A DNA stretch of 48,940 nucleotides, from positions 1 to 48,940 of the forward strand of contig CATLBO010000010.1 of assembly GCA_949879025.1 (NCBI GenBank), in the 5' to 3' direction. Every line of letters begins with the position of its first letter. Position 1 is the stretch's first letter. The translations under genes were made by a program, and so were the position numbers. Below the pieces are notes generated by a model. It saw only the letters and a program-made list of their open reading frames with translations. It searched no databases and was not told the DNA's origin. This DNA is from an uncultured Hungatella sp. (GTDB taxonomy: Bacteria; Bacillota; Clostridia; Lachnospirales; Lachnospiraceae). Below are positions 13,920 through 45,118 of the stretch, piece by piece.

Positions 13920-15833
13920 ATCGAGTAGGAGGCTAACCATTAGTTGATTAGCCGTCCTCTCACACCACCGTGCATACCGTTCGGTACACGGCGGTTCTTT
14001 AGTTTTCACAGACTACCAGATAATAGTCAAGCATGGATGTATATCCCAGCTTGGCTATTATTTTATTTGTGATTACTGAGTTGAGTACCTGTGCCGTTCT
14101 CCAGTAACCTTTCCTGCTACACGCAAGTTCTTTTGCTTTCCAATGTTCAAGTCCTAACGCTTTTAGCATTCGGTACTTTGTCTTGGTTTTCTTCCACTGT
14201 TTCCAGTAAACCGCCCTGATTCTGCGTCTTGCCCATTCATCTGTTCTTAGGAGAAGTTTCTTCATGTCTGCAAGTTTGAAGTAATTTACCCATCCCCGCA
14301 CGAATTGTTGGTATTTTTCTTCCCTTTTCGCATTGCTCATGCCATTGTTTCTGTCTGTCAGTTCTCTGATTTTATTCTTCATCTTGGTGGCTGACTTTGG
14401 GTGTACCCTAAATCTGCATCTTCCCTTGTATCTATAAAAGGTATATCCAAGGTACTTGACTTTACTGATGTGGGCTACCCCTGTTTTCTTCCGATTTACT
14501 TTAAGGAATAGTTTTCCTTCTATAAACGGGATAATGTTTTTCAAGGTTCTTTCTGCGCTTTTCCTGCTCTTGCAGAAAATCATGCAGTCATCGGCATAGC
14601 GGACAAACCTATGTCCCCTGCGCTCTAATTCCTTGTCCAGCTCGTTTAGCATGACATTGCTTAGCAACGGACTGAGCGGACCACCTTGGGGCATTCCTGT
14701 TTCTGTACGCTCAAACGTCCCGTTTGCTATAACCCCCGCATTTAGGTATTTGTGTATCAGCGAAATAACCCTGCCATCCTTGATGGTTCTTGACAACACC
14801 TCTATCAGTTTACTCTGGCTTACCGTGTCGAAAAACTTTTCCAAGTCCATGTCAACCACATATACATAGCCATCATTTACATTCCTTTGGCATTGCCTGA
14901 GGGCGTCATGCGCTCCCCGGTTCGGGCGGAAACCAAAACTGTTTTCTGAGAATTGCTCCTCATAGATTGGTGTGAGTCCCTGCGTGATTGCCTGTTGGAT
15001 TACCCGGTCAACTACCGTGGGAACTCCAAGCTTGCGAAACTCGCCTTTTGTTTCTTTGGGTATCTCTACCCTCCGGACGGGGTTGGGTTTATATTTGCCA
15101 TCCCTTATCTCTTGGATTAAGTTCATCTGGTTTTCTCTTAGGTAGGGCAGGAGTTCATCCACCTGCATTCCGTCAATTCCACCACTTCCCTTGTTTGACT
15201 TTACCTGCTTATACGCCTTGTTAAGGTTTTCCTTCCGCAGAATCAAATCCAAAAGATTGTCCGTCCAATAGTCTGTGATGACACCGCTCTTTTCAGTAAT
15301 CTTAGAGTAGTCGAACACTTCTGCATACTCTCTCTGTTCCGCAGATGCCATTTGCAGATAGTCTTCCATATGAAGTTGTCTGTTCTTAAATCCACTTTCA
15401 GTTACATTCATTGCTCGTGTCTCCTAAAGTTCAGTCCTTCCCATGACGTTTGCAACCGTCTTGGTACTATGACCTCTGCTGACTTCTCGCCATTCGTTGT
15501 TACTCACGGATTTCATACTCTGTTTCCGTCCGCTGGCGAGACCTCCCTTGGTACCACACGTTTCTTTCTCTCCACATATCTGCCACATTTACCATAGTTA
15601 ATTCCGAGTAGTTATTGGACTTTAGTTTGTTCGGCAACCTTATCCTTAACTATAGCCTGATGTGATTTCTGTTCGTCAGACCAGAGATTTGCCTCCACCT
15701 TCCTTCAGATTCCCCTCGCGTTAATCATAATTATTGTTATGAATAGGACACCCTTGGTCTTGGCTGTATCCTTCCCACTACTAGGGCGGATTGGGGACTT
15801 TCACCCGTTAGAAACGTGCGCCGCAAGGCGCAC
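13920..15833 (-). mobile_element. Group II intron, class C
   Basis: About 1914 bases. The 5' end reads GTGCGCC on the minus strand at 15833 and continues TTGCGGCGCACGTTTC; the 3' end near 13920 follows the domain V/VI region (hairpin around GCCGTGTACCGAACGGTATG, then CCTACTCGAT). It encodes a reverse transcriptase/maturase. The 5' end lies three bases after the T run of a minus-strand terminator (15839-15881), which is the known target preference of class C introns. Length fits that class. Confidence 0.85.
13999..15411 (-). CDS. ltrA: Group II intron-encoded reverse transcriptase/maturase
   Basis: Four hundred seventy residues from ATG 15411 with GGAG upstream. It helps splice the intron and copies it into DNA at new sites. 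The reverse transcriptase domain (about 60-330) shows GSGGIDGMQVDEL, FGFRPNRGAHDAL, VDMDLEKFFDTV, GMPQGGPLSPLLSN and the catalytic YADD. The maturase X domain follows (KYQQFVRGWVNYFKLADMKK). It ends without an HNH endonuclease, as usual for class C enzymes. The gene appears intact, so the intron could be active. Confidence 0.95.
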   Translation of the reverse strand: MNVTESGFKNRQLHMEDYLQMASAEQREYAEVFDYSKITEKSGVITDYWTDNLLDLILRKENLNKAYKQVKSNKGSGGIDGMQVDELLPYLRENQMNLIQEIRDGKYKPNPVRRVEIPKETKGEFRKLGVPTVVDRVIQQAITQGLTPIYEEQFSENSFGFRPNRGAHDALRQCQRNVNDGYVYVVDMDLEKFFDTVSQSKLIEVLSRTIKDGRVISLIHKYLNAGVIANGTFERTETGMPQGGPLSPLLSNVMLNELDKELERRGHRFVRYADDCMIFCKSRKSAERTLKNIIPFIEGKLFLKVNRKKTGVAHISKVKYLGYTFYRYKGRCRFRVHPKSATKMKNKIRELTDRNNGMSNAKREEKYQQFVRGWVNYFKLADMKKLLLRTDEWARRRIRAVYWKQWKKTKTKYRMLKALGLEHWKAKELACSRKGYWRTAQVLNSVITNKIIAKLGYTSMLDYYLVVCEN

Positions 15834-24900: not shown

Positions 24901-25515
24901 TTACTTCTGTTCGCTGCCGGCATTCTCCCTTTCATGGAAATAATCCTTAACCGGGACACATTTGCAGGCAAACCTCCTTGTGCCATGCTCTGCACAGGTG
25001 AACAGGGTAAGCACTTCCGTATCGCTTTCTGCCGTTACCCATTCCTCATAAGGGTTTACCACCCGCATTTCCTCCACTGTATAACGGTGCGTCAGCCCTG
25101 CTTTCGTTGTCAGCTTTACCTCTGCCCCCATCCTGATACTTCCGAGGCCTGTAAAAAAAGTCCCGCGCCTGCTGCCGTTATGCCCGGCAAGGACGCAGTT
25201 GCCTTTTCCACATAAAGGCTCAGTGCTTTCCATATGCCCAATCCCCTCATTTAACTGCGCTGTGCCGGTCCCCTCAAATACCGGATACCTGATGTTCAGG
25301 TCCGGTATCTCCACAATCCCGGCTGCCTCCTCCGCCAGATGTGGGGAAACCTCCTTTTTATAACTGCCGGTTTTTTCACTCTCCTCATTTCCATCCTCCT
25401 CAATCTGATTGATATACCAGCCTGCCCTCTGCTGCTCCTGCATCCGCTGAAAAAAAGGGACAGCCGCTATGGCTATCCCAACCAGGATAAATGTTATTGT
25501 TTTTTTACTTATCAA
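24901..25515 (-). CDS. Class D/B-like sortase
   Basis: Two hundred four residues, TTG start overlapping the helicase stop (TTGA) with AGGGAGGGG upstream. A single membrane anchor (about 5-22) is followed by the sortase barrel with VLAGHNGSRRGTFF (catalytic His) and LTLFTCAEHGTRRFACKC (catalytic Cys of TLxTC and the following Arg). Sortases link LPXTG-like proteins to the cell wall or to each other. It probably anchors an ICE-encoded adhesin that may lie outside the window; I see no sorting signal among the translated genes here. Confidence 0.88.
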   Translation of the reverse strand: MISKKTITFILVGIAIAAVPFFQRMQEQQRAGWYINQIEEDGNEESEKTGSYKKEVSPHLAEEAAGIVEIPDLNIRYPVFEGTGTAQLNEGIGHMESTEPLCGKGNCVLAGHNGSRRGTFFTGLGSIRMGAEVKLTTKAGLTHRYTVEEMRVVNPYEEWVTAESDTEVLTLFTCAEHGTRRFACKCVPVKDYFHERENAGSEQK

Positions 25516-28500
25516 CGGTTCCCCTCCCTTTCTTTCCCATACCCATGTGACGGTTCCGCCGCACGGCTGACTTCCGGTTCCTGTTCTTCCTCTTTGGACG
25601 CCTGGTTCTCCAAATCCAGCAGGTTATTTAGCTCAAACTGCCTTGCCAGCTTTGCTTTCAGTTCCGCCTCATATTGGAACGGCTTTTCATATTCCAGTTT
25701 CGCCTGCTCCATGTCAAGGCGGTATTTTTCCAGCTTTTCCTCAAGAAAGCCAACGGCTGCCTGCATCCCGTTAAAAAGGTTTTCAATCTTTGTCATGCAG
25801 CCTACCGGGGAAGTGGACATGTCCGCCCTGTATTCCATCCTCCCCCGCATCACCAGACAATCCTCCCCCATGAAATTCTTTTCCACAAGGACCAAAAAGC
25901 CTTTGTACTCTGCCACTTCCGTCTTCGTGCCTGCCTTGCATTTACTGGCGGCAGACAGGAAAGCAGTTCCGCCGTCCACCCTCTCCGTAAACGTGATTCC
26001 TCCCACTTTAATGGAAAAATCCGTTTCTGCCATCAGGCATTTGTCCCGCTCCCTGACATCTTCATGGACGCGTTTCAGTTTTTCCTCTGCCTCTGCAATC
26101 AGTTTCGGGAACTTTACCATAAAACCGTCCTGCATGGCATAGTGCTGGCTGTCATACGCTGCTTTCAGCATTTTCAGACGCTGCACGTCATTGTCTGTCT
26201 GCATTTTTTCTTTTATCATCGGATTCCCAGTAGCCACAGCCTTTATCTCCGCATAGGAGAGGACTGCCTCGTCAATATCCTCACAGGTCCTTGATATGGA
26301 TTTCCCTGTCATTACCTGTGAGATAAAGCGCTGCTTGTTTTCGACCAGCGCCCAACTGTATGCGTCAAAGGTCCCTTTTGTCACATAGCGGTACACGGCA
26401 ACCTCATCATTCTCATTGCCCTGTCTGAGTCCCCTGCCCTCACGCTGTTCTATGCTTGAGGGTTTCCACGGGCAGTCGCAGTGGTGCATTGCCACAAGGT
26501 GCGTCTGCACGTTGACGCCGGTGCCGCATTTGTCCGTAGAGCCAAACAGCACCTTTTTTATGCCGGAACGCATTTCACGGAACAGGACGTCCCTCTGTGC
26601 GTCTGTTTTGGAATCGTGTATGAATGCGATTTCCTCCGCCGGAATGCCCTGCTTTACCAGTTCCGTCTTGATATAATTATAAACATCAAAACTTCCTATT
26701 TCATGCCACGGTGTGTTTAACATATCCCGGCTCCATGAACGTTTCGGCGTGCCAATATCCGAAAAGATAAGCTGTGTGCCTACTTTCCCCTCACTTTCTG
26801 CCTTACGGTATTCATACAGCACATTTTCCACCACTTTATTTAACTTGCCATCCACGCTCCCCGGTGCGTCCGGGGTTAAAAGCCTTGCATCTGTGCCTAA
26901 CAGCCTTGCCTCATGGGTGATTTTAAGGAAATTGTCTACTTTCGGATCGACACCGCCGTCACGGATTGCCTCCGCCCGCCGGACAAAAGTTTCCATGACC
27001 TGCCTCACATACCAGTCCGGCTCGCTCTCCACGATGATATATTTCCCGCCCCGCAGTTCCGGGGCGTCAAGGTCCAGCATGTCCCTTGTCTGGATGTCCG
27101 CTGCCTCCCGGAAAATGTTCATCAGCTCCGGCAGGTTGGTAAATTTATTAAACCTTGTCTTGAACCGGAACCCGCTGCCCTCAACAGTAAGTTCCAGAGC
27201 CGTTGTCTGCTCCCCGAAATTAGCCGCCCAGCTGTCAAAATGGTAAATCCCAAGCTGCTCTAATGTGTCTTTCTGCAGAAACTGCTGCATGACGTACATC
27301 TCACACATTGTATTGCTGACCGGCGTCCCCGTGGCAAAGACAATCCCCCTCCCATTGTTTATCTCATTGACATACTGGCATTTGAGGTACATGTCCATTG
27401 CCCTCTGGCTGCCGCTGCCGGTTATCCCCGACACGTTCATTTTTGAAAATACGGCGAGATTCTTAAACGCGTGTGCCTCGTCCACCATGATGGAGTCAAT
27501 GCCGAGTTCCTCAAAGGTAATGAGGTCATCCTTCCGCTCCTCATCCGCCATTTCCCGCAGCTGCTCCTCCATCCGCGTTCTCTGTGCCTCCATCTGCTTG
27601 ACGGTCCACCGCTCCCGGTTGCGCTCCTTCATTTCCGCAATGGCAAAGCTGATGTCGTCAATCTGGCGGTTTAACAGCATTTCCCTCCTTTCCTTTGATA
27701 CCGGGATTTTCTCAAACTGCGAGTGCGACATGATGATGCAGTCATAGTCCCCAGTGGCAATGCGGGAGATAAACTGCTTTCTCCTGTGTTTCTCAAAATC
27801 CCTCTCGGCAGCCACCAGAATGTTTGCAGAGGGATAAAGGCGCAGGAACTCACTGGCAGTCTGCCCGATCAGCGGCTTTGGCACTACCATGACCGTTTTG
27901 TTAGAAAGCCCCAGACGTTTCTGTTCCATACACGCCGCCATCATCTCAAAACTCTTGCCTGCACCCACGCAGTGGGCAAGCAGGGTGTTCCCTCCCATCA
28001 GAATCCTTGCAATGGCATTCCTCTGGTGCGGCTTTAGCCGGATATCCGGGTTCATGCCGGGAAACTGTAAATGGCTGCCGTCATACTCCCGCAGCCTTAC
28101 ATTGTTAAAGGTCTCATTATAATAACCGACATATTTATTCCTCCGCTTTGGCTCTGCAAATATCCAGTCCCGGAACGCCTCTTTTAACTGGTTCTGTTTT
28201 TCCCTTGCCAGCATGGTCTCCTTCTGGTTCGTTTCATAATGGTGCTTTCCCCCACCATCTTCAATCCGATTCCGAACCGTCACGGTGCGCAGGTTCAGCG
28301 TGCTTTCAAAAATAGTATAAGCGTCCATCCTTGACGTACCGTAGGTTTTGGTTGCCGCCACTGAAGTATTGTCTAAAGGTTTATTCTCAACAAACCATTC
28401 CATCCGGAACTTATTCAGCTGCACCTGTATCCCGGAAGAACCATAGTCATGTCTCCTCGCCTGCGCCCGTTTTGGCGTGTGCAGCGTTTCATAAAGGAAT

Positions 28501-31500
28501 TTCTCATAGTCCTCCGGCTCAATCCATGTCGTGCCAATCCTCACATCTATCTCCCCGGCATCCAAATCCCGCGGCTGCACCTGTTCTAACGCTGCCACGT
28601 TATCCCCGAACAGTTCCGGGTGTTCGCCCGCTGCTGCTTTTGCCACACGCAGCTTGTCCCGGACATTGCCGGACAGGTACTCATCCGCTGTCTCCCATCC
28701 CTGGTTTTTATCATGCGTAAGGTATTTCTGCGGATTCAGGAAGATAACGCCTTTCAGCTCCTCAATCAGTTTTTCTCTCTTTAATTCTCCTCCGTCAGCC
28801 ACAGAAAGGAGAATTTCTTCCTGCATATCTTTCTGCCTTTCCCTGAGTTTTTCTGCATATCCGCTGATGTCCGGCTCATAAATCTGCAGCATATACGGAA
28901 GATTGACGCCGTTGTACTCACATATGGAAAGGTTGAGGGCCTCCACCGCTGTCTCTGCATGGTCCATTTCCCTCCTTGCCCGTATGGTCTGTTTCGTAAA
29001 CATATCCGCTTTGGTGACAGCGCCATTCTCCGCATCCACCATTTCCAGTGAACATAAAAGAGGGTAATCCTCGTCGTCCCGGAAGGCCCTCGAATTACCC
29101 TGTGAAGTGATATAACCGTATTTTTTTGTAAAGCTGTCATATATGGAATTTAATTCCCCCTGTGCTGCATTCAGTTCTTTCTCACTGCACCCGTTTAACT
29201 GGATGTCTATCAGGTGTCTGGTGCATTTCCGCAGTTTATCCATTCCCCTTATGCGTCCAAACACGGTATTTCCCACTTCCTGCCGGTGCATCCGTGAATC
29301 TTTCCGGTAATACAGTGCCCCATCCACAAACGTGTAGGTGTAATTCTTTACATCCGGATCAGCCGGTATGCTCTCCTCCGGTTCCCCCTCCTGTAAGATT
29401 TCATAATCCGGCATCTGCACCAAAAGGCGGCTTACCGCCTGCTGCAATGCCCCATACAGGTCAAAATCTTCCCTGTCATTGACACATACTGTATATCCCG
29501 CATCACTGCCATACCTGCCGGTATCATACTCCATGCGGCCTAACATCATCTCCGGGTGTTCCACGAAATACGAATTGACAGGCACTCCATTTTCCGTCAT
29601 GCCGAGGTGAACCCAGCCCGGCTCCGCCGATATTTTCCGTTCCCTTTTCTGGAAAAACAAAATATCACTGGTGACTTCCGTCCCTGCCTCTGCCTTGAAA
29701 GCGCTGTTCGGCAGCCTGACCGCCCCGGCAAGTTCCGCACGCTGCGCCAGATATTTACGGACACTGCTGTTTTTCTTATCCATTGTCCCTTTCGTGGTAA
29801 TCACGGCAACAATGCCGCCCGGACGTACTTTGTCTATGGACTTTGCCACAAAGTAGTCGTGGATTTTGAAATTCTCTGCATTGTACTTCCTGTCGTAGAC
29901 CTTAAAATCCCCGAATGGGACATTCCCCACCACAACGTCAAAAAAGTTGTCCGGGAAGTCTGTTTCCTCAAACCCTTTTATCTGTATATCTGCCCCCGGG
30001 TACAGAAGTTTTGCAATCCTGCCGCTGATGCTGTCTTTCTCCACGCCAAAAAGTCTGCTGCCCCATAGCTGCTCCGGCATGGTCCCAAAGAAATGCCCTG
30101 TCCCTACAGAGGGCTCCAGCACATTTCCTCCGGCAAAGCCAAACTGCACCAGCGCCTCTCCAACGGCAGCAGCTACCGCAGGCGGTGTGTAGAAAGCAGT
30201 CGTGACCGTTGCCCTTGCCTCCCGGTATTCCTCTGGGGTAAGGAGTTCCTTCAACTCCGCATATTCTTTCCGCCAGCTTTCGCTTTTTTCATCAAATGCC
30301 TGTGACGTGCCGCCCCACCCGGCATACCTGGCAAGGATTTCCTGCTCCTCCGGCGTGGCGTGCCCGTTTTCTGTCTCTATCTGCTTTAATGTTTTTATGG
30401 CATCCACGTTCCACTTATAGCGTGCCTTTTCCCCGCCGGTCTCCTGTTTGTGAATGTCAATGACATAATTATGGGGCTGTGGCAGCATTATATTTTCAGT
30501 TTCTGCTGCCGGAACCTGTTCTTTTTCTCTGGTGTCAGCAGACTCCGAAACTGGTTCTTTTTTCTCTTTTCCCTCCGAATCTTCATAAGCGACATGATAG
30601 TTATTTATTTTTTGCCGTTGCTCAAAACGCACGGCATCCGGCACTCCCATTTGGTCTGCCTCGTCAGGAATCGCATAGCTGTCAATCCCTGTTTCTTTAT
30701 AATCAAAAAGAGAAGCCTGTCTGAAAACGGCCTCCCTTTCCGTACCAAATGAATTTAAGTCATCCTGCTCCCTGTCTAATTCTTCCTGCGTTTCTAATGA
30801 AATTGGTTTATCAGGTCGTGACGGATAATCTCCTCTGCCTCCATCATCCCCTGTTTCCGGATGCGTAACATCTCCATTGTGGATTCCGGATTCTCCGGCC
30901 TGTGGCTTTCCAGATACTTCTCCATGAGACTTTCCAACATCCGGCCTGCCTCCTCCTCCACTTCTTTCAGTTTTGGGTAGAGGTTGCCGAACCGTATCAG
31001 GCTCCGGTATCTCTGCGGGTAATTTTCCTCCAAATATTCCATCGCCATGATTCCGAACTTCCCTAACGTCCCTGTTTCCGTCTGTTCCGCTGCTTTGATG
31101 TCCGGGTACAGCATCCCGTCTGTCCCCTCGTGGTAACTGATTGCTAGTGCCATTCCTGCCTCCTTTTCCGGAAAGATTCTGCTGCAGATATGCAGCCCGC
31201 TTTCTTCCCTGTTCAATACCCATTATTTCACGGCCAATATTCCGAAGAACGGTACAGGATACGTCACTTACCAGAGTACCAAGTACGCTAATGCTGCCCT
31301 CATCTTTCACATTAACTATTGCACCTAAGTCCTGTTCTTCGCTGCTTAAGTCAAATCCGCATCTTGTCCCCACCGCATAGAAAATGCTGTTAAAAATCAA
31401 TTTCTGTGCGGTAAGCTCTGGCGTTTCATTCTCTCCGCCAGTTATCTCACGTCCTGCAAGCATGGCGGCCTCGGCAAGCTGCTTACCGAAGTCCTCTTTT

Positions 31501-31958
31501 AGAATACCGCACACTTCTTGCTTTGTAAAGGCTTTCAGCTGCTTTAGCCAGCTTTTCCTGTCTGTTCCTAATACTTCCGCAATTTCTCCCCGTTTCCGGA
31601 GTGCCGACAGCAAATCCGGCAGGTTTTCCCCCTCCAAATCCCACGCCAGCTTTACGTTTTTCCCTCCGGTATCGCCAATGTCAAACACATAACGCATCCC
31701 CGGCTTTAATATCCTCGATGGAAAGATGGCAATTCCTTTACTGTCCCGTTTCACATGGCGGCGTACCTTTTTCCATGTATCATAATCCGCAACCAGCGTG
31801 GCAGACGGCCTCTGTGCATACACCATAAGCACATTGTCAAACTCATACCGATATATCCGCCCTGCCAGACGGCAGACTGCCTTCCAGTCCGCCTCAGTCT
31901 GCGTCACCCTGGAAACCACATCCTGATATATCTGGCGAGCCATATATTCTACTCCCAT
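25512..31958 (-). CDS. Giant N6-DNA-methylase/SNF2-type helicase fusion
   Basis: A 2148-residue ICE protein, probably acting on transferred DNA and protecting it. Residues 1-270 form the ArdC-like N-terminal region (ADWKAVCRLAGRIYRYEFDN). From about 270 to 400 is a Gly/Asp-rich linker overprinted by another gene (30794-31153). The methylase domain (about 590-800) has EPSVGTGHFFGTMPE (SAM-binding) and NVPFGDFKVYD, a variant of the NPPY motif. The helicase part (about 1310-1900) has AHCVGAGKSFEM (Walker A), VDEAHAFKNL and REGRGLRQGNE (motif VI). Starts at 31958 or 31943 are possible. It overlaps the sortase gene by four bases. Confidence 0.9.
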   Translation of the reverse strand: MGVEYMARQIYQDVVSRVTQTEADWKAVCRLAGRIYRYEFDNVLMVYAQRPSATLVADYDTWKKVRRHVKRDSKGIAIFPSRILKPGMRYVFDIGDTGGKNVKLAWDLEGENLPDLLSALRKRGEIAEVLGTDRKSWLKQLKAFTKQEVCGILKEDFGKQLAEAAMLAGREITGGENETPELTAQKLIFNSIFYAVGTRCGFDLSSEEQDLGAIVNVKDEGSISVLGTLVSDVSCTVLRNIGREIMGIEQGRKRAAYLQQNLSGKGGRNGTSNQLPRGDRRDAVPGHQSSGTDGNRDVREVRNHGDGIFGGKLPAEIPEPDTVRQPLPKTERSGGGGRPDVGKSHGEVSGKPQAGESGIHNGDVTHPETGDDGGRGDYPSRPDKPISLETQEELDREQDDLNSFGTEREAVFRQASLFDYKETGIDSYAIPDEADQMGVPDAVRFEQRQKINNYHVAYEDSEGKEKKEPVSESADTREKEQVPAAETENIMLPQPHNYVIDIHKQETGGEKARYKWNVDAIKTLKQIETENGHATPEEQEILARYAGWGGTSQAFDEKSESWRKEYAELKELLTPEEYREARATVTTAFYTPPAVAAAVGEALVQFGFAGGNVLEPSVGTGHFFGTMPEQLWGSRLFGVEKDSISGRIAKLLYPGADIQIKGFEETDFPDNFFDVVVGNVPFGDFKVYDRKYNAENFKIHDYFVAKSIDKVRPGGIVAVITTKGTMDKKNSSVRKYLAQRAELAGAVRLPNSAFKAEAGTEVTSDILFFQKRERKISAEPGWVHLGMTENGVPVNSYFVEHPEMMLGRMEYDTGRYGSDAGYTVCVNDREDFDLYGALQQAVSRLLVQMPDYEILQEGEPEESIPADPDVKNYTYTFVDGALYYRKDSRMHRQEVGNTVFGRIRGMDKLRKCTRHLIDIQLNGCSEKELNAAQGELNSIYDSFTKKYGYITSQGNSRAFRDDEDYPLLCSLEMVDAENGAVTKADMFTKQTIRARREMDHAETAVEALNLSICEYNGVNLPYMLQIYEPDISGYAEKLRERQKDMQEEILLSVADGGELKREKLIEELKGVIFLNPQKYLTHDKNQGWETADEYLSGNVRDKLRVAKAAAGEHPELFGDNVAALEQVQPRDLDAGEIDVRIGTTWIEPEDYEKFLYETLHTPKRAQARRHDYGSSGIQVQLNKFRMEWFVENKPLDNTSVAATKTYGTSRMDAYTIFESTLNLRTVTVRNRIEDGGGKHHYETNQKETMLAREKQNQLKEAFRDWIFAEPKRRNKYVGYYNETFNNVRLREYDGSHLQFPGMNPDIRLKPHQRNAIARILMGGNTLLAHCVGAGKSFEMMAACMEQKRLGLSNKTVMVVPKPLIGQTASEFLRLYPSANILVAAERDFEKHRRKQFISRIATGDYDCIIMSHSQFEKIPVSKERREMLLNRQIDDISFAIAEMKERNRERWTVKQMEAQRTRMEEQLREMADEERKDDLITFEELGIDSIMVDEAHAFKNLAVFSKMNVSGITGSGSQRAMDMYLKCQYVNEINNGRGIVFATGTPVSNTMCEMYVMQQFLQKDTLEQLGIYHFDSWAANFGEQTTALELTVEGSGFRFKTRFNKFTNLPELMNIFREAADIQTRDMLDLDAPELRGGKYIIVESEPDWYVRQVMETFVRRAEAIRDGGVDPKVDNFLKITHEARLLGTDARLLTPDAPGSVDGKLNKVVENVLYEYRKAESEGKVGTQLIFSDIGTPKRSWSRDMLNTPWHEIGSFDVYNYIKTELVKQGIPAEEIAFIHDSKTDAQRDVLFREMRSGIKKVLFGSTDKCGTGVNVQTHLVAMHHCDCPWKPSSIEQREGRGLRQGNENDEVAVYRYVTKGTFDAYSWALVENKQRFISQVMTGKSISRTCEDIDEAVLSYAEIKAVATGNPMIKEKMQTDNDVQRLKMLKAAYDSQHYAMQDGFMVKFPKLIAEAEEKLKRVHEDVRERDKCLMAETDFSIKVGGITFTERVDGGTAFLSAASKCKAGTKTEVAEYKGFLVLVEKNFMGEDCLVMRGRMEYRADMSTSPVGCMTKIENLFNGMQAAVGFLEEKLEKYRLDMEQAKLEYEKPFQYEAELKAKLARQFELNNLLDLENQASKEEEQEPEVSRAAEPSHGYGKEREGNR
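30794..31153 (-). CDS. TnpV-like protein embedded out of frame in the helicase gene
   Basis: One hundred nineteen residues from ATG 31153, with AAAGGAGG six bases upstream. The sequence reads like TnpV of transposons: a short strand region with MLYPDI, then GTLGKFGIMAMEYLEENYPQ, RYRSLIRFGNLYPKLKEVEE, a helical segment MLESLMEKYLESHRPE and EEIIRHDLINQFH. The helicase frame at the same bases is low-complexity (Gly, Asp, Pro, Arg), as expected if this frame is the constrained one. TnpV's function is not established. This is a nested gene on the same strand, and its product was presumably captured with the linker. Confidence 0.7.
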   Translation of the reverse strand: MALAISYHEGTDGMLYPDIKAAEQTETGTLGKFGIMAMEYLEENYPQRYRSLIRFGNLYPKLKEVEEEAGRMLESLMEKYLESHRPENPESTMEMLRIRKQGMMEAEEIIRHDLINQFH

Positions 31959-34889: not shown

Positions 34890-37550
34890 CTAACCATATA
34901 TCATCCAGTCATTACCCGCTTTTTCCGTCTTCTGCGGCCCTGAAAAAAACTGCCCGCTTTCTGTCCTGCGGTGCTTTGGCTCATATATTTTCATTGGCGC
35001 ATTATCCTCCCCAGATACATCCCTGTTGTCCGGCTGAAAGATATTTCCTGCCATTCCGATTTCCTCTGCTGCTAGTTGCAGCATATCCCATTCCAGCATA
35101 AAACCTCCTACCGGTTCTGTTTCCTGCTCTGGCATAAAGCCATCCATCGGCTCTGTTTCCGATTCCGGCATAGACAAAAAACCGGTGTTCCCATTATCCT
35201 GCAATGCCCCCTCCGCTATCTTCTCATGGAGGTTCGTGTTATACAGACGGTACAAATCCGTCTCCTTACTTATCCTGTTGTCAAAAGGAATGACAACACT
35301 GCCACACTTTAACAGTCCCGTTCCGCTTGATGAATTGCTGACAAAACGCAGCTGCGCATCCGACACGCCTATGGTCTCCGCCAGCTTTGCACTGTCCACA
35401 TTGGACTGCTTTAACAGCACCACAAACTCACTGTTGGATAACAAAGTAGTGGCGATATAATTCTGTAACAAATCTGACACGTTCTGGCTGATTCCGGTAC
35501 AGAGGCCGCCCTGCTTTCTGACCTTTTTCCACAACTGCTGTAAATACTTTGCACTGTACTCACTGCCAAGCAGCACATGGCATTCGTCAATATACAGCCA
35601 CGTTGCCCTGCCCCGCTTTGCGTTGTCCAAAATCCTCTGCTGAATCGCCTCCATCATCACAAGCATTGCCACCGGCGCAAGCTGGCTCCCCAAATCCTGT
35701 ATGCCGTACACCGTAAAACGGCTGTCCACATCCACGTTCGTGTGGTGGTTGAAGATGTTAAGGGAACCCTCCACGAATAATTCAAGGGAAAGTGCCAGCT
35801 CCTGCGCCTCCATTTCTTCCTGTGCCTTGAGAATCCGATAAAAATCTGACATGACCGGAACCCTCTGCTGTTTCCATGCCGCCATATAAAGGCTGCGGAC
35901 ACAGCGGTCAATGATGGAATGGTGTTTCTGGTTCAGGACGTTGCCTAACAGCTGGTCGCAGAGGGAAAGCATAAATTCCGACTTGTCAGCAATGGCCTCC
36001 CGCAGCCCTTTCTCATTGGTGTGTGCCATATCTGTCTCCAGCGGGTTGACAAAGTTTTTCGTATATGCTGACAGGTTCACAACCGCACCGCCGTAAGTCG
36101 CCGCAATGTCAAAATATTCATTCATCGGATCTATGACTATCACGTCATCATCCGTATTTAAGAACACGCTGCCCATCTCCTGCTTTGCAAAAAAGGACTT
36201 GCCGGAGCCCGGCACGCCGAAAATGAACCCATTGCCATTTATCAGCGTCTTCCGGTTCCCCACGTTGATGTTTTTGCTAATCTGGTTAATGCCGTAATAG
36301 TTGCCCCCGGCATCGTTTAATTCCTGCACATTGAAAGGCAACAATGCCGCAAGGGACTGCGTCAGCATGGTGCGCATGGTCTCCACCTGCCTTACCCCGA
36401 TAGGAAGTGCAGTATTTAACGCCTCCCTCTGTTTCAGGTAGTGGGTGTCGATGATAACCGAATGGCGTTTCCCAATGGTCTCCACCGTCTCCGTCACGCT
36501 CTCCAGTTCCTCCCTGCTCTCTGCCACAAGAATAATGCTGACCGCCGCATAAAATAAACACTGGTCGTTTTCCCTCACGTCATCCATGATTTCCTCAATG
36601 TCTTTTTTCTCCATGCGCTTTGCATAGGAAATTTCCGAGGAAAAGTCATTGTTTTTGTTCCTTACCCGCTGCTGCCTGATAATGTCGCTCTCAATGCCGA
36701 GATATTTTTTCTGCAGTATCTTTGTCGTCAAATCTTTCGGCACCGGCACAACGTCAATGCTCACAATGGAATGGACAGGCAGTGACGTAATTTCATTAAG
36801 GAAACGGTCGGATAAGCTGCTGGGATATTTTTTAATGAACAGCGCCCTTACAAACTTACCCTCGTCTTCGATATGCTCCGGGAAGTATTTCAGCATCCCA
36901 TTGCACAAATCATTGCGGAAATCCAAGCCAACCTTTTTTGCCCGCCGGATGTCAAAGTCAAAACCGTCCTCCCTGCCGAGGTGGTAAAAATCATGCAGCA
37001 CCTTTAACCTCTCATTTCCAGAAAGCGGCTCTATCTCTGCCCCAAGTTCCCCAAAAGCCTTGTGCAGTACAGCCTCCAGCGTGGCAAACTGCGCCTTTGC
37101 CTCCTCAAAATTCTTCCTCTCAACCGTAAGCGTCAGATACCGTTCCTGCTCTATCCCCTGCCTGCCCTCACGGATTTTGCCCTCTATGATGTCATTGTAG
37201 ATTTTACGGAACCGGTCAAACCCGTCCTGGCGGTATGGCAGCAGCACCATCTCCCGCAAATTGGCCATGTCCTTATTCCTGTTGTTTATGGTAACCTTAA
37301 AATTACAGTCCAGTGAGTTGAGGAATTTGCAGTACCTCTCAAAAATGCTTTCCTGCTCCCCCTCATTGGCAGTCGTGTAATTAATGTCCATAAAACGGTA
37401 ACTCTTTGAATAACGGTTTTTTGCAACCTCAAAAATGCCGTTCTCAGCCACCGACAGTATCTCTATTGTCTCCTGTATGGATTTCGGCGTCTTATAAAGG
37501 GGCACATCTGCCTTTTTAAGCTCTTTGAATCCATCTGAAAAAATTCCCAT
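34890..37550 (-). CDS. virB4: VirB4-family conjugation ATPase
   Basis: Eight hundred eighty-six residues; the ATG at 37550 has GGAGG upstream, and a longer frame to 37658 would run into the preceding gene. VirB4 powers assembly of the type IV secretion channel at the inner membrane face. Walker A (GVPGSGKSFFAKQ, about 447) and Walker B (WLYIDECHVLLG, about 653) are present, with motifs after them (QNVSDLLQNYIATTLLSNSE). The N-terminal half matches the TraC/VirB4 alpha/beta region. The C-terminal 90 residues are acidic and repetitive (MPESETEPMDGF, MPEQETEPVGGF). Confidence 0.95.
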   Translation of the reverse strand: MGIFSDGFKELKKADVPLYKTPKSIQETIEILSVAENGIFEVAKNRYSKSYRFMDINYTTANEGEQESIFERYCKFLNSLDCNFKVTINNRNKDMANLREMVLLPYRQDGFDRFRKIYNDIIEGKIREGRQGIEQERYLTLTVERKNFEEAKAQFATLEAVLHKAFGELGAEIEPLSGNERLKVLHDFYHLGREDGFDFDIRRAKKVGLDFRNDLCNGMLKYFPEHIEDEGKFVRALFIKKYPSSLSDRFLNEITSLPVHSIVSIDVVPVPKDLTTKILQKKYLGIESDIIRQQRVRNKNNDFSSEISYAKRMEKKDIEEIMDDVRENDQCLFYAAVSIILVAESREELESVTETVETIGKRHSVIIDTHYLKQREALNTALPIGVRQVETMRTMLTQSLAALLPFNVQELNDAGGNYYGINQISKNINVGNRKTLINGNGFIFGVPGSGKSFFAKQEMGSVFLNTDDDVIVIDPMNEYFDIAATYGGAVVNLSAYTKNFVNPLETDMAHTNEKGLREAIADKSEFMLSLCDQLLGNVLNQKHHSIIDRCVRSLYMAAWKQQRVPVMSDFYRILKAQEEMEAQELALSLELFVEGSLNIFNHHTNVDVDSRFTVYGIQDLGSQLAPVAMLVMMEAIQQRILDNAKRGRATWLYIDECHVLLGSEYSAKYLQQLWKKVRKQGGLCTGISQNVSDLLQNYIATTLLSNSEFVVLLKQSNVDSAKLAETIGVSDAQLRFVSNSSSGTGLLKCGSVVIPFDNRISKETDLYRLYNTNLHEKIAEGALQDNGNTGFLSMPESETEPMDGFMPEQETEPVGGFMLEWDMLQLAAEEIGMAGNIFQPDNRDVSGEDNAPMKIYEPKHRRTESGQFFSGPQKTEKAGNDWMIYG

Positions 37551-37624
37551 GTCTGCCTCCATTCCCGTGCAATAGGGAAAGCGGCAAACTCCCTGCCGGC
37601 TCCCCATCTGCACTGTTTTCCTTT

Positions 37625-38608
37625 CTACTGTTTCTTCTCCGGACAGAAAGACCTGCACCTGCCCATCTCAATATCCGCAATACACTTCAGTATCGGATAG
37701 GCCTGCTGCGGCACCACCGCATTCCCAAGCGAAAACATACGGCTGCCCCACAGCGGGTAAGGTCTCGTAATGCGGCTTACACCCTCCGGCTCTTTTTCCC
37801 ACATCCTATGTCCGTCCATCCAACCGGGAAGCCCATCAGCCATTCCACCCACTCTGGGTTGAGTTTGTGCTGTTTCATGGAAAGTTCCGTGACTTCCGTA
37901 AAAAGCTCCCTCTGCTCCTCCGTCTCCGGTTCGTGGAACCCGGTCCCCGTCTGCTCCATTACCTCCGGGGTACAGAATACCCGCATCTGCAGGTTGGGGT
38001 TCCAGAGCGTCCCCGTCGAGTTGAGTTTCTTTAATGTTCCCGTTTTCTTCATCCTGCCAATGAGGGCAGTGGAAACATCCATCTTCCCAATGGCCGCCAC
38101 CGGCGTCGGCCAGGTGTCCGGCAATGAATACCCGTTTCCTCTCATGCCACGCGCCGACGGCGAGAGCAGGTAGTACGAAAGCCCGGACTTCATAGCCTGC
38201 TCCTTCCAAATCAGAAACCGTCTGTTCGAGCCCCATATTGAGGAACCCAGCAACATTTTCTCCAAGCACCCAAGCGGGGGAGAGCTCTTTGATGACTCTA
38301 AGCATTTCCGGCCAGAGGTAACGGTCATCCTCAAAGCCTCTGCGTCTCCCGGCAAAGGAAAACGGCTGGCAGGGGAATCCCCCTGAGATGAGTGTGACAC
38401 TTCGTTCGTTTGTCCTCGCATAAAACTCCTCCTTATTCAAATCCTTGATGTCCTTAAATCTAGGCACATCTTTCCAGTGTTTTTCCAATATCCCATTCTG
38501 AAAATCAGCCCATTCGCACTGTGCAACAGTGGTAAACCCCGCCGCCTCCGCCGCAAGGTCAAGCCCGCCAATGCCGGTAAACAGGCTGACGTGTGTTAAA
38601 TCCTGCAT
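37625..38608 (-). CDS. DNA (cytosine-5) methyltransferase
   Basis: Three hundred twenty-seven residues from ATG 38608; a start at 38629 adds seven. It methylates cytosine at C5 in a specific DNA site. Motif I ([18 protein letters not shown]), motif IV ([16 protein letters not shown], catalytic Cys80), motif VI (GENV, about 116-119), motif VIII ([10 protein letters not shown]) and motif X ([15 protein letters not shown]) are in order. The target-recognition part (about 175-270) is short and Gly/Asp-rich. A second gene is embedded in another frame (37777-38421). It is probably for protection of the element against restriction. Confidence 0.93.
37777..38421 (-). CDS. Methyltransferase-associated protein in an overlapping frame
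   Basis: Two hundred fourteen residues, entirely inside the C5 methyltransferase gene but in another frame. ATG 38421 has AAGGAGGAG at ideal distance. The protein looks like a known family encoded beside phage C5 methyltransferases: [62 protein letters not shown] and [17 protein letters not shown]. The last motif is the typical end of that family. Its role is unknown; a specificity or partner role for the methyltransferase is an inference. Both frames carry conserved motifs over the same bases. Confidence 0.7.
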
Positions 38609-38635
38609 ATATTTCTTTTCCCTTTCCATACAAAA

Positions 38636-38684: not shown

Positions 38685-39182
38685 TTACTGTCTGTACTTA
38701 TACCAGACTGCCAATACTACAAATAAAACAAAAAATAATACCATTGCAAAAAACATACGGAACATCTTTTTCCGGACTGCTGCAAAGCCGCTTCCACCAT
38801 TATCCCCTTTCTTTCCTGTACTGCTTTTCTTTCCTGCCTTATTCTTTGTTTCTTCCTCCAGCCGCAACTTCCGTACTGCCTGCTCCCCCTCCGTAGATAC
38901 ATAGGTGTAGGTGCGGTTTGCAAAGGCAAAGTGCAGCTTTAATTTCATCATTTCCATAAACGTCATCCCATGATAAGAATAAAAGCCCGTCATGGCGATT
39001 GGTGCAACCACCGGGATTGCTATATAGGCGCTGACCGTCAGCCCCACATATTGGTACAAAAGCAGCACAATCCCGCCTCCCACAGCTACAGATAAGACAG
39101 AGTACACAAGCTGTCTTGCAGTCAGTCCTAGCACCACGGACTCCTTGTAGTTGTCAATATTTTTATTAATCTCTATTACCAC
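38685..39182 (-). CDS. PrgI-family conjugation membrane protein
   Basis: One hundred sixty-five residues from GTG 39182 (GGAGA eight bases upstream), reading VVIEINKNIDNYKESVVLGL with the GTG as Met. Two membrane segments follow (about 28-65, including SVLSVAVGGGIVLLLYQYVG and YIAIPVVAPIAMTGFYSYHG), then YTYVSTEGEQ. A third membrane helix lies at the C-terminal end (FFAMVLFFVLFVVLAVWY). PrgI/VirB3-like proteins sit beside VirB4 in the inner membrane; the longer frame upstream overlaps the preceding gene and is not used. Confidence 0.85.
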   Translation of the reverse strand: MVIEINKNIDNYKESVVLGLTARQLVYSVLSVAVGGGIVLLLYQYVGLTVSAYIAIPVVAPIAMTGFYSYHGMTFMEMMKLKLHFAFANRTYTYVSTEGEQAVRKLRLEEETKNKAGKKSSTGKKGDNGGSGFAAVRKKMFRMFFAMVLFFVLFVVLAVWYKYRQ

Positions 39183-39210
39183 TGTTTTCTTCTCCTTTCC
39201 TGACGGCTTT

Positions 39211-39807
39211 TTACCTTGACTTCCCCGGTTCCTGCCGCACAGGCTCCTGTTCCCTCTCTGCGTCCCCAAACTCCCATTCATCTTTGGATGTGATATTGAC
39301 ATATTCGCCAATGATATGGAGCGCCTCATGATAACTGCCAGAAGAACAAACACGTTCTCTCAGTTCCTCTGCCTGCTCTTTCAGTCCATGCTCCCTTAAC
39401 GTACTGGCAGCAACCCCTGCCAGGTTAAAGATGTTGCTGTCCTCCCCAATCAGGGCACAGTCCGGCTTTTCCACAGGCCTGTCCGCAAAGCCGCCCAGAC
39501 GGTTCGGCACATAGTCGGACAGCCATGTGCCGCCAAAGTTCTCATACGTCTGTAACCGCCATATGGCGAATTTCCCCATATCCAGCTTTACATCCTCAAA
39601 AGGATATAAAATACAAGGCAGCCCATCATGTTCAAATGTCGACACTTCCTGAAATTCTGTCCCATCCAGTAAAATTCCTTCTTCCGTAAGCATCTGGTTG
39701 ATTCCATCCACCCACTCTTTAAGTTCCCCGCCGCAGCCTTGCAAAATAAGCCCCTCCTTATCCTCCATGCTGCGCAAGTCTTCCGATGAAATTGTATTGA
39801 TTTTCAA
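39211..39807 (-). CDS. ICE protein of unknown function (CPD/LIGEDSN type)
   Basis: One hundred ninety-eight residues from TTG 39807, with AAAGGAG eight bases upstream. It is acidic and has a block KPDCALIGEDSNIFNLAGVA with ASTLREHGLKEQAEELRERV, typical of ICE-encoded proteins with a 'LIG.DGN.F.L' motif. It lacks membrane segments and is probably cytoplasmic. It lies between two other transfer-region genes; specific role unknown. Confidence 0.7.
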   Translation of the reverse strand: MKINTISSEDLRSMEDKEGLILQGCGGELKEWVDGINQMLTEEGILLDGTEFQEVSTFEHDGLPCILYPFEDVKLDMGKFAIWRLQTYENFGGTWLSDYVPNRLGGFADRPVEKPDCALIGEDSNIFNLAGVAASTLREHGLKEQAEELRERVCSSGSYHEALHIIGEYVNITSKDEWEFGDAEREQEPVRQEPGKSR

Positions 39808-42949: not shown

Positions 42950-45118
42950 TTATTCATATTTCCTGCGTATCTCCATCATCTTCACCACCGAAGTTTCCGG
43001 GTAGAAATAAGACAGTATCACATCCTTTGGCACACGGACAGCCATTGCCCGCTTTACTTCCTCTTTCTGCTCCACGGTAAATTTCCAGTGGAACATACGG
43101 TAAGAAATGGAATCCGCTGCTCCTGTATCCCCTGCTGCAAAGGATTCCGGTATTGCCGCATCCTCCGCTGACAAATCCGGTGTATCTTCTTCCACGTCAA
43201 AGGCATATTCCAGCTGCATATCTTCATTAAGGCTCTCCCGCTGCTCCTGCCCTTCCAAATCTGTAAACCGTTTTTCCATTTCCACCTGCCCAAGCAGCAG
43301 AAATTCTTCATAAGGGATTGTGTCAATATAAACCGGCTCCCCTTTTTCTTTCAGCCCCTCATAGTAAGCAAGGGATTTCTGGTTCAGAATGGTAAATCCC
43401 GGTTCCGCACTCTCCCCCTCTGCCGCTGGCTCATGCTCATAAGGCTCCCCCTCCCCGTCTGCGGTCTGGGCAAATACCGGGTGCCCGAACGGGTTATATT
43501 TATTATCCAGTATCGGATCGAACCCACGGATAAAGATAAGGCATTTTTTATTGTCCATCTTCCTGACTTCATCGGGTGTCATAATCTCCCTGCCGAGGAC
43601 GTCATAATTCCTTGAGGAACTCCCCTGCCTTCCCCTTGTCTCACCGCTTGATTTTTTGTCAATGGTCGCTTTGCCAAGCAGCTTTGAGATGTACTCATGG
43701 GTGCTCTGCTCGTTGCCGCCGAGATAAACCAGACTGTCACAATTCCCCGGTATCGTCTCCCATGTGTCTTTGAACAATGCCTTAATCTGTGCAAGGTTCT
43801 GGATGATAATCACACTGGAAATCTCCCTGCTGCGCATGGTGGATAACAGCGAGCAGTAATCATCCGGCAGAGCCACGTTGCTGAACTCATCCAGCATAAA
43901 GGTAACATGCACCGGCAGCCTGCCCTCGCAGTTAAAATCCGCCTGATAATACAGTTCCTGAAATATCTGTGTGTAGAGCATTCCAATGATATAGTTATAG
44001 GACTTATCCGAATCCGGTATCACACAGAATAATGCCGTTTTCGTCTTTCCATCCCCATTGACGCCAATCCCCAGCTCCGCAAGGTTCAGCTCGTCCCTTG
44101 AAAGCATACGCAACACCTGTTTATTCTCCAGCGTGGCAAGCCTTGAGTTGGCGCTGATAATAATGGAACGGACGGTATCGCCCGCACCGCGCATACACTT
44201 GTTGTACTGTTTGACAGCAGGATGGTTTTCTTTCAATGGGCTTGTTGCCTCCAGGAACTTCATTCTGGTGTCCAGCATGGAAGGCTTACCCTTTTCCGTG
44301 ACTTCCGCCTCCTCCATGAGTTTCAGCACCGAGGCAAAATTCCGTTTTGGCGGCTTTTCCTCCAGCCACACATAATAGAAAAGCGCCTGCAAAAATAATC
44401 CCTCTGCTTTCTCCCAAAACGGATCTGAGGGACTCGCGCCTTTCGGGGTTGTATTGCTCATGATATTCGTTATCAGCTTTACCACATCCGTTTCCTCCCG
44501 GATATAGGCAAAGGGATTGTAACAGTCCGATTTTGCCATCTCCAAAAGATTGATGACCTTCACGTTGTAACCATTATTCTTCAGCATTTCACCCTCGCTG
44601 CGGAGCAGCTCCCCTTTCGGATCCGTTGCGATAAAAGAGGTATTTAACTGCATAAGGTTTGGCTTTACCTCATAGAATGTCTTTCCTGCACCGGAACCGC
44701 CGATAATAAGGACATTGTTATTAAGTTTGGTATGCCTTGTGTCAAGGCTCATGCGGACATTCTGGCTCAGTATGCGGTTCCTGCCCTCATCCTTATCCGC
44801 TAAAACACGGTTGACCTGCTTTGTATCCGCCAGTCTGGAAGTGCCGTATTCTTTCCCCGGCATGAAATTCCTCTGGCTTGTATAATACATGACGATGATA
44901 ACGGCATACGCCAGCAGGGCATAGCTGGTCATGCGGAAAGTAAACTCATTATAATAATCATGCAGGGGATAGGAGCATACAATGGTAAACCGTTCCAAGA
45001 ACTCATGAAACTCTATCCCATCCCTCCATGCACCCGCCACCAGATAGCCAAGAAAGGCAGAGGCAAAGGCACCAAGCACAATCATAATGATATTTGGTCT
45101 CTTTTTTGTTGTCTGCAT
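42950..45118 (-). CDS. virD4: VirD4/TraG-type coupling protein
   Basis: Seven hundred twenty-two residues from ATG 45118 (GGAGGAGGTAAAG). It brings the relaxase-DNA complex to the secretion channel. Two membrane segments lie at the N-terminus (about 10-30, 68-85). The ATPase part has Walker A (IIGGSGAGKTFYEVKPN, about 141), FMLDEFSNVALPDDYCSLLS (Walker B-like, about 409) and STMRSREISSVIIIQNLAQI. The C-terminal 120 residues are acidic and may contact the relaxosome. It directly follows the PcfB gene with two bases between stop and start. Confidence 0.95.
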   Translation of the reverse strand: MQTTKKRPNIIMIVLGAFASAFLGYLVAGAWRDGIEFHEFLERFTIVCSYPLHDYYNEFTFRMTSYALLAYAVIIVMYYTSQRNFMPGKEYGTSRLADTKQVNRVLADKDEGRNRILSQNVRMSLDTRHTKLNNNVLIIGGSGAGKTFYEVKPNLMQLNTSFIATDPKGELLRSEGEMLKNNGYNVKVINLLEMAKSDCYNPFAYIREETDVVKLITNIMSNTTPKGASPSDPFWEKAEGLFLQALFYYVWLEEKPPKRNFASVLKLMEEAEVTEKGKPSMLDTRMKFLEATSPLKENHPAVKQYNKCMRGAGDTVRSIIISANSRLATLENKQVLRMLSRDELNLAELGIGVNGDGKTKTALFCVIPDSDKSYNYIIGMLYTQIFQELYYQADFNCEGRLPVHVTFMLDEFSNVALPDDYCSLLSTMRSREISSVIIIQNLAQIKALFKDTWETIPGNCDSLVYLGGNEQSTHEYISKLLGKATIDKKSSGETRGRQGSSSRNYDVLGREIMTPDEVRKMDNKKCLIFIRGFDPILDNKYNPFGHPVFAQTADGEGEPYEHEPAAEGESAEPGFTILNQKSLAYYEGLKEKGEPVYIDTIPYEEFLLLGQVEMEKRFTDLEGQEQRESLNEDMQLEYAFDVEEDTPDLSAEDAAIPESFAAGDTGAADSISYRMFHWKFTVEQKEEVKRAMAVRVPKDVILSYFYPETSVVKMMEIRRKYE

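Follow-up and report, generated by a model that had tools for sequence, protein, structure and literature searches.

Can a single stretch of DNA encode, in two overlapping reading frames, the two parts of one DNA methyltransferase? The question is raised by a locus in a 48,940-nucleotide stretch of DNA from an uncultured Hungatella sp. (contig CATLBO010000010.1), analysed at its full length and referred to here as the window. The outer frame, alpha (37625..38629, minus strand as are all features of the locus), encodes a 334-amino acid catalytic subunit of a C5-cytosine methyltransferase with motifs I-VIII and X and without motif IX. A second open reading frame (ORF), beta (37777..38421, 214 amino acids), lies with its whole length inside the alpha ORF, on the same strand and in the +1 frame, and is the proposed recognition subunit carrying motif IX. 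A preliminary description made from the sequence alone had read the locus as an unusual case of overprinting by two functional frames. We consider it probable, at roughly 0.8, that the locus is one C5-cytosine DNA methyltransferase made as two polypeptides from one DNA stretch.

Both frames of the overlap are protein-coding

The beta ORF begins with ATG at 38421, preceded by the Shine-Dalgarno (SD) sequence AAGGAGGAG at 38434-38426 (AGGAGG plus 6 nt), which was read from the sequence and lies inside the alpha codons for K-E-E. The overlap with alpha comes to about 640 bases. The preliminary description had reported this 214-codon same-strand ORF at 37777-38421 with its ATG and well-placed SD, and had quoted motifs from its translation; the ORF was confirmed and the motifs are present. 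When the alpha protein was held fixed and its synonymous codons were reshuffled, the +1 frame was open over 214 codons in 41 of 20,000 shuffles using the gene's own codons and in 4 of 20,000 when the usage was taken from four genes neighbouring it in the window. Holding the beta protein fixed instead left the alpha frame open in 120 (own codons) or 0 (neighbour usage) of 20,000.

Genome contigs supplied ten relatives, of which nine showed 80-100 % protein identity; one was identical to the window and two were alike, leaving a distinct set of the window plus 7 relatives. The beta ATG, SD and stop were kept in all eight distinct sequences, with the A/G-rich SD at the equivalent site in each. In the flanks of the overlap (109 codons) alpha position 3 was variable at 50 codons and position 1 at 15, whereas position 3 varied at only 26 of 112 codons in alpha codons 71-182 (Fisher p 4e-4 vs flanks) and at 19 of 101 in codons 183-283 (p 3e-5). 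The DNA of codons 183-283 is also the recognition and motif IX part of beta, and here position 1, which is the third position of beta, was variable at 48 of 101 codons against 19 for position 3. Changes altering alpha and silent in beta occurred at 181 per 1000 opportunities and the reverse at 74, beta being the better conserved of the two frames over this stretch.

To extend the comparison to the family we calculated the ratio of observed to expected synonymous difference in 12-codon windows across 140 non-redundant alpha relatives, a set from which 11 broken loci, locus L072 and 7 close relatives (L092, L093, L095-L099) were excluded and which loci selected by their alpha protein entered unscreened for broken copies. 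Upstream of the beta start the ratio was 0.99 (0.97-1.02 in all windows, codons 10-69). It falls at codon 70 and stays at 0.38-0.96 through codon 297, with means of 0.72 for codons 71-182 and 0.66 for codons 183-268, and returns to 0.94-1.01 from codon 298 onward. The low values extend beyond the window's own beta stop (0.50 at codons 286-297, and a mean of 0.78 for the 3′ flank as first defined, codons 286-325), likely because beta ends nearer the alpha stop in many relatives. A control of 29 ordinary C5 genes gave 0.96-1.03 and no dip, on few usable columns (11, 27, 1 and 12).

These data bear on the simplest objection, that the beta frame is an untranslated shadow of conserved alpha codons. 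Conserved alpha motifs do partly fix the residues of the +1 frame, so tblastn matches alone prove little. Synonymous constraint, however, starts at the beta start, ends near the beta stop and is absent from the controls, codons 183-283 are better conserved in the beta frame, and that frame stays open in just 4-41 of 20,000 shuffles. The codon shuffles, the position-wise variation and the family-scale synonymous test with its ordinary-enzyme control together lead us to reject the objection, which we regard as barely credible. By every coding test run, beta is protein-coding and both frames are functional across the ~640 bases. Stops in the second frame of homologous genes and freely varying synonymous sites, the two outcomes named beforehand as speaking against dual coding, were both looked for: the beta stop, ATG and SD persist as described, the beta family occupies the +1 frame at all 80 loci collected through alpha (below), and synonymous variation is suppressed over the overlap.

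Start sites in the wider family are also consistent with internal initiation. SD-like sequences precede 106 of 268 beta-frame starts near the beta N-terminus compared with 14 of 90 starts in the two remaining frames. With broken loci, close relatives and near-duplicates excluded, 63 of 68 loci have one or more beta starts with an SD before them (a looser per-locus count gives 83 of 88). As several starts are possible per locus, these counts support internal initiation while leaving each start unfixed. The collection comprised 105 loci, 90 of which were kept; four (L022, L065, L072 and L109) failed on the wording of the motif or end-distance rules only, and in 11 one frame or both were interrupted by a stop or a frame break, as may be expected if copies have decayed or come from metagenome contigs. 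Inside the overlap of two very similar viral contigs lies a run of G (11 G in L052, 1325-1375; 10 G in L055, 3355-3405), which shifts both frames together. Either a phase-variable tract that controls the two subunits or a sequencing error may account for it.

Distribution of the conserved motifs between the two chains

Alpha matches PF00145 in a Pfam profile search (E 9.8e-38, 130.8 bits against a curated cut-off of 22) and phrog_363 in a PHROGs profile search. Motifs I-VIII align to M.HhaI, and motif X (37688..37744) was identified by sequence and by a structural alignment extending to model residue 327. Alignment to M.HhaI and the predicted local distance difference test (pLDDT) scores of an AlphaFold2 model together place the catalytic domain, with motifs I-VIII, in codons 1-182 (38084..38629); block means of 64-97 for residues 11-180 predict a confident catalytic core, and motif X forms a predicted helix (residues 307-321, block means 77 and 94). 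Between them, residues 182-280 have pLDDT values below 50 and are predicted to be disordered. On this prediction and the substitution pattern, the Gly/Asp-rich stretch of codons 183-283 (37781..38083) is proposed to be an unstructured linker to motif X. The window's alpha has no motif IX by eye, and no folded recognition domain is predicted in that chain. The outer frame had been called complete with motifs I, IV, VI, VIII and X; these C5-cytosine methyltransferase motifs are indeed present in alpha, but the lack of motif IX leaves the frame incomplete. The suggestion that the overlap explains alpha's odd Gly/Asp-rich recognition region holds.

Beta has no match among Pfam and NCBIfam models, and its matches to PDB are at chance level, with no structure match detectable; modelled alone it gives a poor structure. 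It matches phrog_1008 (E 5.9e-25, best stretch residues 10-165), whose PHROGs label, 'DNA methyltransferase', assigns the subunit no role, and more weakly five small PHROGs having the beta C-terminal motif in common. A local hhalign comparison of the beta end with motif IX of 41 C5 enzymes gave a score of 20.6 (E 0.0061 for one comparison), the best of 60 column shuffles reaching 14.3. The IX-like segment (37810..37863) is followed by 10 residues and then the end of beta, motif X lying in alpha instead. As the direct match is short, the assignment of motif IX to the smaller chain draws on hhalign together with the in-frame fused relatives described below, and these point jointly to beta as its putative carrier. 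Between the conserved N half and the IX-like end the alignment places a variable stretch of (W/L)PTP type (37864..38115), a candidate target-recognition region by its position and by comparison with the fused relatives. One pattern finds 0-6 (W/L)PTP blocks per protein among 71 non-redundant proteins, rising with length (Spearman 0.60).

We examined the best 80 of 576 viral loci found with a profile of the outer protein and patterns on motifs IV and X, and not through beta. The motif IX search pattern, like the motif names, was our own, made from general knowledge of the motif. The beta family was present in the +1 frame in 80 of 80 loci, while frame 0 showed the motif IX pattern in none of them; the longest +1 stretch measured 104-370 codons (median 249) against a median of 46 in the +2 frame. 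Conversely, the best 30 PF00145 loci of ordinary enzymes, drawn from 116 genomes belonging to the window's order, all contained motif IX, which the pattern detected in 26 and inspection by eye in the other 4, and none contained the beta family, while among 29 further profile matches from 101 genomes of the phylum the beta family occurred in one and the IX pattern in 15 others. The outer profile was built from beta-selected loci, so these co-occurrence counts are not a prevalence estimate. Selection through beta gave a matching picture: in all of the best 80 of 481 IMG/VR stretches, the best beta segment fell in the +1 frame of the methyltransferase match. The inner family had been described as encoded next to C5 methyltransferases; in the loci fetched it lies inside them instead.

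Fused and split relatives and the relation of alpha to beta

In some relatives the frames are arranged differently. Three actinophage proteins, Wachhund gp69, Jabberwocky gp4 and PFR1 Orf45, contain motifs I-VIII, a beta-like recognition and motif IX block and motif X in one ORF, the block being detected by a beta hidden Markov model at E 4.5e-12, 1e-9 and 1.9e-8, respectively (searched as a 7-sequence set). In Koko gp92/gp91 and Juno112 gp41/gp42 the beta-like block is found on a second overlapping gene, which also carries motif X. The in-frame position of this block suggests that the C half of beta is most readily taken to be the small domain of the enzyme to which alpha belongs, encoded in another frame. 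In a catalytic-domain tree 116 rows (111 nested, 3 fused and 2 split) stand apart from 51 other C5 rows on a branch with a Shimodaira-Hasegawa-like approximate likelihood ratio (SH-aLRT) of 99. The tree, of 167 rows after a redundancy cut and with 11 broken loci omitted, was a quick one, arbitrarily rooted and with long branches; on it the nested rows require two label changes.

Two observations weigh against a single divided enzyme. The match of the fused relatives is limited to the C half of beta, the N half being unmatched, and in Streptococcus phage MM1 1998 and in locus L147 an alpha protein with its own motif IX nevertheless carries a nested +1 frame of another family. Like the window, MM1 1998 has a +1 gene nested in a C5 gene (orf13/orf14, C5 methyltransferase alpha/beta). 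Its alpha, however, branches with ordinary enzymes, and its beta lacks a C-terminal end of the window's type and groups with the nested frame of L147. The nested frame of MM1 1998 (our locus L103) lies at 1652-2077, is annotated as C5 methyltransferase beta subunit and matches the L147 frame at E 1.2e-23 and 45 % identity. This second nested family may represent dual coding of independent standing.

Such cases lend some weight to an alternative in which beta has a function of its own, for instance as a regulator or an anti-restriction factor, and does no more than share DNA with a self-sufficient methyltransferase. Beta's own start and SD, the lack of a detectable structure match and a conserved N half without a recognised counterpart in ordinary C5 enzymes would all fit such a protein. 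The motif IX pattern is missing from alpha wherever beta is present in the loci examined, however, and the beta-like C half stands in-frame between motifs VIII and X in the relatives, so that we judge a separate job for beta unlikely. Of the earlier claim of two functional frames over ~640 bases, the coding of both stands; they likely make one enzyme in two polypeptides and do not have separate jobs.

The same enzyme could in principle be made as a single chain by ribosomal frameshifting, with motifs I-VIII read from alpha, a shift to +1 for the recognition and motif IX part and a shift back for motif X. The motifs would stand in canonical order only in such a joined product, and fused relatives do exist. 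Two shifts would be required, however, whereas the split actinophage forms require none. Frameshifting is also disfavoured by the beta SD and ATG, conserved in all eight distinct sequences, by the presence of an SD-preceded start in 63 of 68 loci, and by alpha being open across the recognition region against expectation from the codon shuffles. We therefore hold frameshifting, for which no search aimed at slippery sites was made, to be very unlikely and retain two polypeptides as the best explanation.

An enzyme of two polypeptides has precedent. M.EcoHK31I (YGGCCR), in the account given within PMC3404938, consists of a larger polypeptide with motifs I-VIII, X and a predicted recognition domain and a smaller one with motif IX only, while in M.AquI (CYCGRG) the catalytic and recognition/IX parts are on two polypeptides, the small one also carrying motif X (PMC3404938). 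Compared by motif layout as described in that account, the window resembles M.EcoHK31I in having motifs I-VIII and X on a larger chain lacking IX and motif IX on a smaller one. It may differ in the target-recognition domain, which is predicted on the larger chain of M.EcoHK31I, whereas our evidence points to the smaller chain: the corresponding alpha stretch is predicted to be disordered and is weakly constrained, and the recognition block of the fused relatives is beta-like. With M.AquI, as outlined there, the window shares the split of catalytic from recognition/IX parts, and the Koko 92/91 split form resembles it; in M.AquI, however, the small subunit has both IX and X, whereas in the window X stays on alpha.

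Nested genes of this kind have been deposited without a mechanism in Paenibacillus phage Shelly (gp55/gp56, nested in a C5 gene with the note 'g55 internal gene') and Escherichia phage fKuEco01 (KE1_032/KE1_033, with the note 'putative Mte8-like protein'). Lee, Kam and Shaw (1995) reportedly placed the EcoHK31I small gene within the large one, in an alternative frame. The arrangement, first proposed to be unusual, is widespread and has a precedent in M.EcoHK31I. The two-polypeptide architecture matches that known system; the family-wide coding test, the role of motif IX and the fused relatives are added here. The portions of the open PMC literature that we searched yielded no description of the nested family, which we do not claim to be unpublished.

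On the two-polypeptide reading, alpha would provide the large S-adenosylmethionine (AdoMet)-binding and catalytic domain (motifs I-VIII) and motif X, joined via a flexible low-complexity linker. Beta, translated from its own SD inside alpha, would provide the small domain with the variable recognition region and motif IX. The conserved N half of beta may dock on alpha, and the two chains would assemble into the active enzyme. Binding, complex formation, activity and biological role of the alpha-beta enzyme are all things that we infer. How the arrangement arose we can suggest only tentatively, at a little short of even chances: by reciprocal overprinting, a one-chain ancestor like the actinophage fused forms might have had its small domain moved to the +1 frame, where it gained an internal start. 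Alpha would then be the old catalytic domain with a new, barely constrained linker, and beta a new N half over the catalytic domain followed by the old small domain.

Genomic setting, distribution and significance

The locus is embedded in a conjugation module, with PrgI (38685-39353) and a TraG/VirB4-like ATPase (34890-37658) on either side and a coupling protein at 42950-45118. In the close relatives PrgI precedes the methyltransferase in 7 of 7 and the ATPase follows it in 6 of 7, the exception being L095, whose sequence ends 555 bases beyond the match and showed no ATPase; in the more distant loci L083-L087 an ATPase gene comes before the methyltransferase in 5 of 5. The VirB4-like ORF as listed begins within the 3′ end of the methyltransferase gene (37625-37658, 34 nt overlap); the real start may be further inside the ORF. 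A Pfam scan of 20 window proteins recognised no separate type II nuclease. On the integrative element the methyltransferase would be a solitary modification enzyme, plausibly marking element DNA and so protecting it from restriction on transfer into new hosts. The same element also encodes a 2148-amino acid protein with Eco57I-type methylase and SNF2/DEAD helicase domains (25512-31958, minus strand), and the window contains a group II intron reverse transcriptase/maturase gene (RVT_1, GIIM; 13999-15411, minus strand).

The beta family is found in 7 of 392 genomes of the window's order, its own included. Searches with tblastn found 3 plasmids and 67 phage records, 54 of these being of Paenibacillus, using beta, 226 phage records and 13 plasmids using an enterobacterial version of beta, and 571 phage records, nearly all with actinobacterial hosts, using Koko gp91. 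Single nested examples occur in a Microcystis phage, mycobacteriophage Bipolar and a Bacteroides plasmid with one early stop in alpha. At the nested-type locus L120 of a Bacteroides finegoldii plasmid (~1500-2700), alpha has an early stop and the inner-type frame is open through the overlap, only a fragment being annotated as methyltransferase. Annotation is uneven in the records examined, the inner gene being missed, called hypothetical or named methyltransferase.

To our knowledge, it has rarely been demonstrated in bacteria that selection acts on both frames of a long same-strand overlap. Here the overlap of ~640 bases is widespread, has a sharp constraint signal and involves frames that seem to divide one enzyme between them; its breadth and this apparent reciprocal division of labour are what make it of interest. 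If correct, the two-polypeptide model would mend the annotation of phages and integrative and conjugative elements (ICEs), would explain C5 methyltransferases seemingly without motif IX and would offer naturally split methyltransferases for study. Should reciprocal overprinting also prove true, the family would constitute a large natural data set for two proteins sharing one DNA stretch, covering several bacterial phyla with their phages, plasmids and ICEs, in which the (W/L)PTP blocks of beta may be interchangeable recognition modules.
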